Below are positions 15,347 to 19,256 of a stretch of DNA of 37,082 nt, piece after piece. The DNA lies in the NCBI GenBank assembly GCA_024645025.1, contig JAHEGQ010000073.1, forward strand, positions 1-37,082. Reading direction: 5' to 3'. The stretch is from Sphingomonadaceae bacterium. GTDB lineage: Bacteria; Pseudomonadota; Alphaproteobacteria; Sphingomonadales; Sphingomonadaceae. The position numbers and the translations under genes were made by a program. Position 1 is the first letter of the stretch; the number at the start of each line of letters is the position of its first letter. Below the pieces are notes generated by a model. It did no database searches. It had not been told where the DNA came from and worked only from the letters and a program-made list of their open reading frames with translations.

Positions 15347-15670
15347 ATGAGACCGCGCTGTTTGGCAAGAATGGTCGGAAGTTTAGGTGTTGCGGGGTGC
15401 CTTTGGTTCGCTGATGATGGCGGTCACTACATCGCGCCCCGGTTTAAGGGGCCGACTGACGCGTTTAATCATTTTGCGCAGAACCGAACCGTCAATCGCG
15501 GTCGGTACCGCGTGATGGAGGACAGATGGGCGCAGGCGCTGAAGCAAGGGAAAAAGGTTTATGTGGAGATTCGCCCCGCCTATGCGGGGCACTCCAAGCG
15601 GCCCTTCCGATTGGATGTAAAATTCGACATCAATGGACAACAAAGCATAGACCGGTTTTCAAATGAGTGA
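15347..15670 (+). pseudogene. Orphan C-terminal toxin fragment, DNA/RNA non-specific endonuclease (Endonuclease_NS_2-like)
   Basis: DDGGHYIAPRFKGPTDAFNHFAQNRTVNRGRYRVMEDRWAQALKQGKKVYVEIRPAYAGHSKRPFRLDVKFDINGQQ matches my memory of the family pattern (D.GGH.IA..F.GP.....N..........N.....WA.AL..GK.V.V.I.P.Y.G.S.RP....V...I.G). No leader, delivery domain or credible RBS; an in-frame TAA lies 12 nt before the first ATG. Confidence 0.65.
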
Positions 15671-15681
15671 GGTGATGGGAT

Positions 15682-16113
15682 ATGGATGACATCACCCGGC
15701 AGGCATTGGCTGAACTGATTGGTTTCTTTCTGCACGGAAAAAGGACCTTGCATCATTCAAAGATGCTTTTCATCGGATTCTTTGACCCTCAGATTTGTTC
15801 ATGGTCCGTTTTTGAAGACGAGGGTGAAAGGCTACGCTACGTCGATTTGAGTTACGATGAACTTGACACATTCTGTGAAGAAGTTTTCGATATCTGGAAA
15901 GCCCAACCGCAAACGCATCAGTGGCAGACGCTGGAAGCCCTTTTGGAGGGAGACGAGATCAAGCTGCATTTCTTCTATGCAGACAAGCCGCTTGGTAATG
16001 ACGAGGATTTTCCGCCGCGAGAGCCCATTATCCAAAAATATTTCGGCGACAATCCGATTGTCTATCCCCCGCTTCCGCATCTGGGGCCAGATGATTTGGG
16101 GTTCGAATTGTAA
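15682..16113 (+). CDS. Probable immunity protein, YezG/DUF600-like
   Basis: 143 aa acidic protein (LSYDELDTFCEEVFDIWKAQPQTHQWQTLEALLEGDEIKLHFFYADKPLGNDEDFPPREPIIQKYFG) with a DUF600-like layout; starts 11 nt after the toxin-like ORF, preceded by gaggtgat SD. Confidence 0.6.
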   Translation: MDDITRQALAELIGFFLHGKRTLHHSKMLFIGFFDPQICSWSVFEDEGERLRYVDLSYDELDTFCEEVFDIWKAQPQTHQWQTLEALLEGDEIKLHFFYADKPLGNDEDFPPREPIIQKYFGDNPIVYPPLPHLGPDDLGFEL

Positions 16114-16234: not shown

Positions 16235-17290
16235 TTACTCCGCCGCGACGCCCGCTGCGGCGAACATATCGGCTTCCGATGCTGCTTCGGTGTCGCCGTC
16301 ATTGGCGGCCTTGGTCGATTTGCGGCGGTCGAAGCTATCCCACACGTCGTTCCAATTCCCGCGCGTGGCCGCCTTGGCATATTCTGTCGCGCGGGTTTCA
16401 AAGAAGTTCGCGTGCTCCACGCCGTTCAACAACGGCGCCAGCCACGGCAGCGGATGTTCTTCCACCATATAGATTTGCGGCAAGCCCAGCTGGCCCAAAC
16501 GCCAATCGGCGATATAGCGGATGTAGCGCTTGATTTCCTTGGCCGTCATCCCCGGCACCGGGCCCATTTCAAAGGCCAGATCGATGAAGCTATCCTCCAA
16601 ACGGACAACCTTCTGGCAGCAATCGATAATATCTTCCTTCACTGCCTTGGTCAGGCAGTCGCGTTCCTTCACAAAGGCGTGGAACAGGCGGGTGATGCCT
16701 TCGCAGTGCAGCGATTCATCGCGGACCGACCAGGTGACGATCTGGCCCATGCCCTTCATCTTGTTAAAGCGCGGGAAGTTCATCAGCATCGCAAACGAAG
16801 CGAACAGCTGAACGCCTTCGGTAAAGCCACCAAACATGGCGAGCGTGCGCGCAATATCCTGATCATTATCGACGCCGAACTGGTGCATATAATTGCACTT
16901 GTCCGCCATTTCCTGATAATCGAGGAAGGCCGAATATTCGGTTTCCGGAATGCCGATCGTGTCCAGCAGGTGCGAATAGGCAGCGATGTGGACCGTTTCC
17001 ATGTTGGAAAAGGCCGTCAGCATCATCTTGATTTCGGTCGGCTTGAACACCCGGCCATATTTGTCGTGATAGCAATCCTGCACCTCGACATCGGCTTGGG
17101 TGAAAAACCGGAAAATCTGGGTCAGCAGATTGCGTTCATGCTCGCTGATCTTTTGCGCCCAGTCGCGGCAATCTTCGCCCAGCGGCACTTCTTCGGGCAG
17201 CCAGTGGATCTGTTGCTGGCGCTTCCAGAAATCATAGGCCCAGGGATATTCAAAGGGCTTGTAGGACTTGCGAGCTTCGAGCAGCGACAT
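16235..17290 (-). CDS. nrdB: Ribonucleoside-diphosphate reductase beta subunit, class Ia-like
   Basis: FFTQADVEVQDCYHDKYGRVFKPTEIKMMLTAFSNMETVHIAAYSHLLDTIG and SVRDESLHCEG R2 iron-ligand motifs; SD AAGGAAGAAG upstream. Confidence 0.96.
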   Translation of the reverse strand: MSLLEARKSYKPFEYPWAYDFWKRQQQIHWLPEEVPLGEDCRDWAQKISEHERNLLTQIFRFFTQADVEVQDCYHDKYGRVFKPTEIKMMLTAFSNMETVHIAAYSHLLDTIGIPETEYSAFLDYQEMADKCNYMHQFGVDNDQDIARTLAMFGGFTEGVQLFASFAMLMNFPRFNKMKGMGQIVTWSVRDESLHCEGITRLFHAFVKERDCLTKAVKEDIIDCCQKVVRLEDSFIDLAFEMGPVPGMTAKEIKRYIRYIADWRLGQLGLPQIYMVEEHPLPWLAPLLNGVEHANFFETRATEYAKAATRGNWNDVWDSFDRRKSTKAANDGDTEAASEADMFAAAGVAAE

Positions 17291-17319
17291 TTTCTTCTTC
17301 CTTAAATTACGGCAGGCCA

Positions 17320-17366
17320 GAGTGCTTCCATTGTCAGTGACCCCGTCACTGACAAGCTAAGCACTC
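17320..17366 (-). promoter_or_regulatory. Strong hairpin spanning the nrdA 3' end and the nrdA-nrdB spacer
   Basis: + strand gagtgctt-cca-ttgtcagtgac-ccc-gtcactgacaa-gct-aagcactc: perfect 11-bp stem with 3-nt loop, plus an outer perfect 8-bp stem across a 3x3 internal loop. Confidence 0.85.
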
Positions 17367-19256
17367 ATCATAATCGGTCGTGGTCGCCAGCTCGAACTTG
17401 GGCGCGTCAGGCGTGTTGTCCGCCTCGACACCGCCGGCAAAGCCCGCGCGCTGGATGGATTTTGACCGAAGGTAATAAAGCGACTTCACGCCCAATTCCC
17501 ATGCGCGGAAATGGAGCATCAAAAGATCCCATTTCTCAACATCCGCCGGGATGAACAGGTTGAGCGAGGTGGCCTGATCGATAAAGGGCGTGCGATCCGC
17601 CGCAAGTTCGATCAGCCAGCGCTGGTCGATTTCAAAGCTGGTCTTGAACGTATCCTTTTCGTCCGGCGACAGGAAATCGAGGTGCTGGACAGAGCCGCCA
17701 TGTTCGAGGATCGAATTCCACACGGCTTCTGAGTTTTTCGCCTTTTCGATCAACAGCTTTTCCAGATGGGGATTGCGGATCGAAAAGCTGCCGGACAGCG
17801 TCTTGTGGGTGTAGATATTGGCCGGGATGGGCTCAATACACGCGCTGGTGCCGCCGCAGATGATCGAAATCGACGCGGTCGGCGCGATCGCGGTCTTGCA
17901 GCTGAAACGTTCCATCACGCCGCGCTCTTCGGCATCCGGGCACGCGCCGCGTTCGGTCGCCAAAAGCATCGAGGCTTCGTTGACCTTGGCCGAGATGTGC
18001 TTGAAAATCTTGAGGTTCCAAGATTTCGCCATCGCGCTTTCAAACGGGATGTTGCGCGCCTGCAAGAAGCTGTGGAAGCCCATGACGCCCAGACCGACCG
18101 ACCGTTCGCGCATCGCCGAATATTTGGCACGGGCCATTTCCGGGGGTGCGCGATCAATATAATCGGTCAGCACATTATCGAGGAAGCGCATCACATCTTC
18201 GATGAATTGCTTGTCGCCATTCCACTCATTCCATGTTTCCATGTTGAGCGACGACAGGCAGCATACTGCTGTGCGATCATTGCCCAGATGGTCACGGCCC
18301 GTTGGCAGCGTGATTTCCGAACACAGGTTCGATGTTGACACCTTCAGGCCCAGTTCGCGGTGATGCTTGGGCATCGCCTTGTTCACATGGTCGGAATAGA
18401 TGATGTAGGGCTCACCCGTTGCCAGGCGGGTTTCGACAAGCTTCTGGAACAGCGCGCGCGCATCCACCGTGCCGCGCACCGAGCCGTCTTTCGGGCTCTT
18501 CAATTCCCATTCCGCCCCCTCGCGAACCGCTTCCATAAAGGCATCGGGGATCAAGACACCGTGGTGCAGGTTCAGCGCCTTGCGGTTGAAGTCGCCTGAC
18601 GGTTTGCGGATTTCCAGAAACTCTTCAATTTCCGGGTGCGAGATGTCGAGATAGCAGGCAGCCGACCCACGCCGCAGCGAGCCTTGCGAAATGGCAAGCG
18701 TCAGCGAATCCATCACGCGCACAAACGGAATGATGCCAGAGGTCTTGCCGTTCAAGCCCACCGGCTCGCCAATGCCGCGCACCGACCCCCAATAGGTCCC
18801 GATGCCGCCGCCCCGCGAGGCCAGCCAGACATTCTCGTTCCAGGTGTTGACGATGCCTTCCAGGCTATCGTCCACCGAATTCAGATAGCAGCTGATCGGC
18901 AAGCCACGGCCCGTGCCGCCATTTGACAGAACCGGGGTGGCGGGCATGAACCAAAGCTTGGAGATATAATCATAGATGCGCTGGGCGTGCGCCTGATCGT
19001 CCGCATAGGCCGAGGCCACGCGGCAAAACAAATCCTGATAGCTTTCACCCGGCAGCAGATAGCGGTCGCGCAGCGTTTCCTTGCCGAAATCGGTCAGCAA
19101 ATCATCGCGGCTCCGGTCCAGCTCCAGCGGATAGGCAACGTCCACCGTGCGCGTGTCTTTCACCGCGCCGGACTTTTTCTTGGTCTTGGTCACCTCAACC
19201 GTGCCGCTTGCCACATCATCTCCGCCAGCCGATGCCTGCGTATCCCGAAAATCCAT
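17346..19256 (-). CDS. nrdA: Ribonucleoside-diphosphate reductase alpha subunit
   Basis: MPATPVLSNGGTGRGLPISCYLNSVDDS, NLCSEITLPTG, and C-terminal redox CLACQ tail; 636 aa. Confidence 0.96.
   Translation of the reverse strand: MDFRDTQASAGGDDVASGTVEVTKTKKKSGAVKDTRTVDVAYPLELDRSRDDLLTDFGKETLRDRYLLPGESYQDLFCRVASAYADDQAHAQRIYDYISKLWFMPATPVLSNGGTGRGLPISCYLNSVDDSLEGIVNTWNENVWLASRGGGIGTYWGSVRGIGEPVGLNGKTSGIIPFVRVMDSLTLAISQGSLRRGSAACYLDISHPEIEEFLEIRKPSGDFNRKALNLHHGVLIPDAFMEAVREGAEWELKSPKDGSVRGTVDARALFQKLVETRLATGEPYIIYSDHVNKAMPKHHRELGLKVSTSNLCSEITLPTGRDHLGNDRTAVCCLSSLNMETWNEWNGDKQFIEDVMRFLDNVLTDYIDRAPPEMARAKYSAMRERSVGLGVMGFHSFLQARNIPFESAMAKSWNLKIFKHISAKVNEASMLLATERGACPDAEERGVMERFSCKTAIAPTASISIICGGTSACIEPIPANIYTHKTLSGSFSIRNPHLEKLLIEKAKNSEAVWNSILEHGGSVQHLDFLSPDEKDTFKTSFEIDQRWLIELAADRTPFIDQATSLNLFIPADVEKWDLLMLHFRAWELGVKSLYYLRSKSIQRAGFAGGVEADNTPDAPKFELATTTDYDECLACQ

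Follow-up and report, generated by a model that had tools for sequence, protein, structure and literature searches.

A palindrome at the nrdA-nrdB junction of Sphingomonadaceae: a candidate insertion allele, possibly formed by template switching

The window analysed here, a stretch of 37,082 nucleotides from a Sphingomonadaceae bacterium, carries a hairpin in which the last codons of nrdA form one arm and the spacer before nrdB forms the other. This raises the question of whether the structure is an element that regulates the two ribonucleotide reductase genes or the trace of an event that rewrote the end of nrdA. The reading that we favour, with modest confidence, is that the hairpin is a recent, patchily distributed palindromic insertion allele that arose via template switching and spread horizontally, and not a conserved regulatory element.

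A stable hairpin across the end of nrdA

The minus-strand sequence from 17366 to 17320 reads GAGUGCUU-AGC-UUGUCAGUGAC-GGG-GUCACUGACAA-UGG-AAGCACUC (Table 1), exactly as given in a sequence-only reading of this DNA, and the 5' arm does encode the E-C-L-A-C-Q-stop end assigned to it there, at the close of the 636-aa nrdA frame. RNAfold of the plus strand gives the same helix as was described for the 47-nt hairpin. Its stability corresponds to z = -4.98 against 200 dinucleotide shuffles, none of which (0/200) was equally stable. The window has four perfect stems of at least 11 bp with loops of 3-8 nt, where first-order Markov sequences have 0.13 on average. The earlier view that this is not an ordinary intrinsic terminator is also correct: where such a terminator has a U-tract after its stem, this hairpin has none and runs into UGGCCUGCCG (next nucleotides, UGGCCUGCCGUAAUUUAAGG). 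It had been missed that UGGCCUGCC on this 3' side repeats the end of the NrdA frame of a sister species. The nrdB start lies ~30 nt downstream of the hairpin, and its AAGGAAG site is unpaired in the predicted fold. An Rfam scan of 901 nt gave no match above the gathering score and two sub-threshold matches at chance level. Selenocysteine insertion or read-through at the UGA was ruled out by inspection, as the in-frame codons soon meet another UGA. The pattern GTCAGTGAC-N2-6-GTCACTGAC has one match in the searched part of the window's own genome (G000, a 78% complete draft), and this single copy speaks against a repeat dispersed through that part.

Table 1 Features of the nrdA-nrdB junction, in window positions
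Feature	Position	Strand	Description
Hairpin, 47 nt	17320..17366	-	8-bp outer stem, 3x3 internal loop, 11-bp inner stem, GGG triloop
5' arm	17345..17366	-	NrdA codons GAG TGC TTA GCT TGT CAG, stop TGA (17348-17346), one C
GGG triloop	17342..17344	-	
3' arm	17320..17341	-	within the nrdA-nrdB spacer
TGGCCTGCC	17311..17319	-	probable fossil of the old NrdA tail, from sequence comparison and analogy with the second tails of L050, L052 and L054
56-bp block	17311..17366	-	G000 = G004 at every base, sharp edges
AAGGAAG	17297..17303	-	Shine-Dalgarno-like site of nrdB, outside the hairpin
nrdA	17346..19256	-	class I RNR large subunit, 636-aa ORF; Pfam PF02867, PF00317
nrdB	16235..17290	-	class I RNR small subunit, ORF; Pfam PF00268

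Presence and absence among relatives

The genus of the window's genome has 13 species, among them Chakrabartia godavariana, and lies in the order Sphingomonadales. The hairpin is present in seven of the 13 species (G000, G003, G004, G006, G008, G009 and G011) and absent from six (G001, G002, G005, G007, G010 and G012). These six keep the ECLACQ end intact, with TAA or TAG stops, and write the same peptide in different synonymous codons; in five of them nrdB is directly downstream of nrdA. On a tree built on the nrdA region upstream of the tail, hairpin-bearing and empty species are interleaved, with seven state changes, five of them inside the genus. G006 is paired with the empty G001, and G004 and G009 adjoin the empty G002. 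The ancestral-looking tails of the empty alleles favour gains in the history of the genus.

The block common to G000 and G004 runs from GAGTGC to CTGGCCTGCC with zero differences; in upstream 60-nt windows the two genomes are identical at 48-55 of 60 positions (~80-92%), and the flanks are about 85% identical. Compared with the empty sister G001, five of the last six sense codons of G000 and the stop differ, GAG being the codon in common, and the peptide is unchanged. Most likely, then, the arrival of the hairpin also replaced the NrdA tail. Since the codon differences arrived with the 56-bp block, the G000 copy probably came from outside instead of arising in place.

To gauge frequency across the family, we read 150 nrdA ends from an even draw of 201 genomes. 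Nine ends passed an automatic filter and six were confirmed by eye: G000, G003 and G008 from the window's genus, and G386, G483 and a decayed copy in G498 from outside it; elsewhere in the family the hairpin is found at 3 of 146 nrdA ends (2%). Six of 150 is the pattern of a rare insertion and not of a conserved control element. An intact second tail, described below, follows two of the six hairpin ends and none of the 144 others in this sample. In species of other genera, the distance from the hairpin to the nrdB start is about 450-900 nt, or no nrdB was found within 1.5 kb (G613 and G568).

Second tails and palindromes in other genes

We scanned 84,980 species genomes with a pattern made of the coding tail and the start of the 3' arm, leaving the sequence beyond free. 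This returned eight records, five from the window's genus and the others from Parasphingopyxis sp., Sphingomonas sp. Root241 and Sphingomonas sp. SRS2, all Sphingomonadaceae. In these last three (L050, L052 and L054), for which the hairpin was the sole search criterion, a second, non-coding NrdA ending stands immediately after the 3' arm; the SRS2 junction, for example, reads ...GGCACT followed by CTAGCCTGCCAGTAA. The second tails match the live ones at 12/15, 12/15 and 11/15 positions, and 0, 2 and 8 of 500 shuffles, respectively, were as good. Comparable copies are missing from all 11 hairpin-free nrdA ends that were compared. The window's TGGCCTGCC is identical to part of the G001 ending TTGGCCTGCCAATAA; by analogy, this is suggestive of a 9-nt remnant of the old NrdA tail.

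A separate search was keyed on the double tail, and its cases are thus selected for a second tail. It yielded eight genomes from seven genera, with two junctions identical to ones from the hairpin-only scan. In one case, G568, the stop is TAG and the opposite arm has CTA; this genome preserves at least two nested generations: a live tail with its hairpin, an older tail with a decayed hairpin and a still older tail. The order in every double-tail case is live tail, loop, inverted tail, old tail. This A-A'-A layout, an inverted copy flanked by a direct copy, is thus present in L050, L052 and L054 unselected, in the others as selected cases, and in the window only through the 9-nt remnant. The palindromic stretch at the last codons of nrdA is ~42 nt, with a net gain of 40 in the window and 38-50 in other species, and consists of a rewritten tail with its stop, a C/G triloop and an inverted tail copy, with the previous tail after it where preserved.

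In 381 family genomes, the tip TGATCC-CCC-GGATCA has 30 occurrences, spread over 27 of them, and the reversed pattern has none, this control containing CTAG, which is rare in many bacteria. A composition-matched palindrome occurs five times in 201 genomes, which makes the tip only about 3-fold commoner, so many single tip matches may be chance; L124, L126, L127, L131, L136 and L137 look like such matches. The convincing cases outside nrdA, marked by long arms or by an empty site that is known, lie in accC, a PilZ-domain-like gene, and IS3 and IS630 genes. For accC, insertion-free relatives end in ...WLARQEP* or similar and G568 ends in ...WLAREETTG*, with the palindrome after this stop, followed by a stretch that can be read as LARQGDA*. 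GAGTG[CG]CTGGC stands at both the accC and the nrdA site, a match that may reflect a target preference or coincidence. Downstream of the PilZ-domain-like gene of G615 (L121/L147, G615:C1:838766-838844) there are three tandem 64-nt units, each with the TGATCC-CCC-GGATCA tip and a second hairpin with a GGG triloop, the farthest unit being decayed. In IS3 orfA, G212 and G612 carry a 42-bp insert relative to the Novosphingobium plasmid pLA1, and the same insertion is found in Croceicoccus marinus. Compared with pNL1, an IS630 transposase gene carries about 41 extra bp, with at most a possible 4-nt GAGA target duplication. The tip TCCCCCGGA and the left arms of the IS3 and IS630 inserts are absent from the empty sites, and the left arm is no copy of the target.

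Across these sites we saw no consistent target-site duplication, and limited searches found no autonomous or long form and no flanking integrase. A search for A'-A junctions, as expected of a long integrated element with tail-like ends, returned four of the known short cases and a G345 match. A search of 400 kb from each of G568 and G008 for palindromes with C/G triloops recovered only nrdA, the accC case and a single GC-rich repeat, so such palindromes are rare. A phage carrier was rejected, as the nrdA-tail patterns matched no viral contig. The bare tip TGATCCCCCGGATCA is present in 39 viral contigs (L150-L188). A ~60-bp sequence 3' of accC (CGTCCTGAGCGAAGTCGAAGGACGG..., L143/L194) has dozens of copies in G568, G498 and G613 and is a sphingomonad intergenic repeat. 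In the congeneric G302 (L145) and G185 (L146), a CGGATTGATCC-GGG-GGATCAATCCG hairpin lies ~15 nt past the stop of an apparent guaA. Our literature search found no paper on this nrdA-nrdB junction or on such sphingomonad palindromes.

Origin of the palindromes

The spacer arm had been said to be complementary to the coding arm, and it both matches that arm and co-varies with it across species. Paired positions change on both sides at synonymous sites, and a right arm folds with its own left arm at a mean of -27.1 kcal/mol, compared to -21.0 kcal/mol with those of other species (0/20000 permutations as good). Of the covariation check that had been proposed for relatives, this half came out positive; conservation of the hairpin did not, given its absence from the six congeners. 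The triloops occur in both orientations (GGG/CCC and CCG/CGG), and inverted loops with homogenised arms are among the outcomes described for template switching. During replication, template switching homogenises inverted-repeat arms and inverts their spacers without selection (PMC8604942), and it creates and maintains hairpins (PMC8794818). Because the arms of a palindrome are homogenised mechanically in this way (PMC8604942, PMC8794818), co-variation by itself does not show that the RNA has a function. A second point against a reading as RNA selection is a single instance: two copies of one IS3-gene insertion (L129 and L190), one of them in a dead gene copy with several stops, differ by a two-sided C-G to A-T pair change. 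The nrdA case suggests that stem co-variation beside a coding arm can arise without RNA selection, a caution for covariation-based RNA discovery.

In the template-switch reading, a DNA polymerase at the gene end would copy the tail, switch template and fold back to copy it inverted, and then return to the tail, so that palindromes would be born locally. Later switching would keep the arms complementary and flip the triloop, and short tracts would spread between species via horizontal transfer or gene conversion. As the new tail must still encode ECLACQ, the insertions that restore it would be those that survive, and any effect on nrdB would be incidental or secondary. The nrdA palindromes fit known template-switch products in most, but not all, features. 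Quasipalindrome correction likewise yields perfect inverted repeats in one event, with homogenised arms and an inverted loop, and the four-switch-point model can yield a tail-inverted tail-tail order (PMC8794818, PMC8604942). Unlike those products, the nrdA insertions occur repeatedly at the end of the same essential gene in several genera; their tip apparently recurs, and there is evidence that they spread horizontally. The recurrence of TGATCC-CCC-GGATCA across genes and genera is not predicted by local switching and appears to count against it, and the non-copied left arms of the IS3 and IS630 inserts are left unexplained; a small mobile palindrome would explain both. Since template switching explains most of the features and not all, we keep a mobile palindrome as an alternative and rank template switching plus horizontal spread ahead of it. 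Read as template-switch products, these palindromes are a natural case of palindromes arising inside an essential gene, with the catalytic C-terminus restored and the old end left as a fossil.

The alternative, which we regard as a tentative possibility, is a mobile element of ~42 bp with the tip TGA(TC)C-CCC-G(GA)TCA and its own in-frame stop, inserted preferentially at gene 3' ends by a transposase or recombinase acting in trans. It would account for the same tip in nrdA, accC, PilZ, IS3 and IS630 genes, the inserts of 41-42 bp relative to insertion-free copies, the similar accC and nrdA targets, and the patchy distribution with identical blocks in diverged hosts. However, one copy was found in the searched part of the window's draft genome, the arms fit each host's own codons and not one element sequence, and neither consistent target duplications, an integrase or long form, nor viral matches to the tail patterns came to light in the searches above. 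A fuller version, in which an undescribed tiny palindrome with host-matched arms repeatedly invades gene 3' ends of Sphingomonadaceae at GAGTGNCTGG-like sites, re-supplies the essential C-terminus and accretes in tandem, pushing older tails downstream as stratified fossils, is rather doubtful. Should the tip and target preferences prove real, they would define a new minimal mobile palindrome.

Known repeat families share some of these properties. REPs are multi-copy, sequence-conserved and extragenic. Like REP/BIME elements, the nrdA palindrome is a short GC-rich hairpin near a gene 3' end, but it is single-copy and overlaps coding sequence. It resembles MITEs as a short non-coding inverted-repeat insertion, but has neither a repeat family in the genome nor a clear target duplication. 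Rickettsia palindromic elements (RPE) are also palindromes inserted inside protein-coding genes, with an altered product (PMC10969869). However, RPE are ~150 bp long and form sequence-conserved families of dozens of copies with an open in-frame peptide, whereas the nrdA palindrome is ~42 bp, was found in one copy, and has gene-specific arms and an in-frame stop, departing from RPE in size and copy number.

It is unlikely that selection acts on the hairpin as an RNA element of the nrdA-nrdB transcript, one that tunes NrdA:NrdB through 3'-end protection, processing or translational coupling. The hairpin is very stable, its arms co-vary despite the coding constraint, and the seven hairpin-bearing congeners have nrdB directly downstream. 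However, it is missing from the remaining congeners and from almost all other nrdA ends of the family, some copies have nrdB far away or none within 1.5 kb, the nrdB ribosome site is free in the prediction, similar hairpins lie inside disrupted transposase genes, and Rfam gave no match above threshold. The earlier suggestion that the hairpin could tune NrdA:NrdB is not supported as a conserved function; six of the 13 congeners make the same NrdA end and lack it. A secondary effect on nrdB is possible in the window's operon, with nrdB only ~30 nt past the hairpin. A U-less transcription terminator or roadblock is very improbable: the strong GC-tipped stem right after the stop codon and similar tips near guaA and tRNA 3' ends speak for it, but there is no U-tract, nrdB 30 nt downstream would be silenced, and most relatives lack the hairpin.

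Other sequences also occupy this region. A CCCTCTCC...GGAGAGGG-type repeat lies directly downstream of nrdA in G010 (L014) and Root241 (L052), which suggests that this junction is an insertion hot spot; elsewhere in the family, genes have been inserted into the nrdA-nrdB interval. At L072 (G483:C12:440083) the palindrome is Y-shaped, with an outer stem GGTTCGGG/CCCGAACC around CCC and GGG triloop hairpins. Near nrdB in the window, a 107-aa plus-strand ORF (15347-15670) matches the C-terminal part of Endonuclea_NS_2 (PF13930, E 2.7e-18) and is followed by an orphan 143-aa ORF (15682-16113, plus strand). The pair looks like a truncated DNA/RNA non-specific nuclease and a possible immunity gene.
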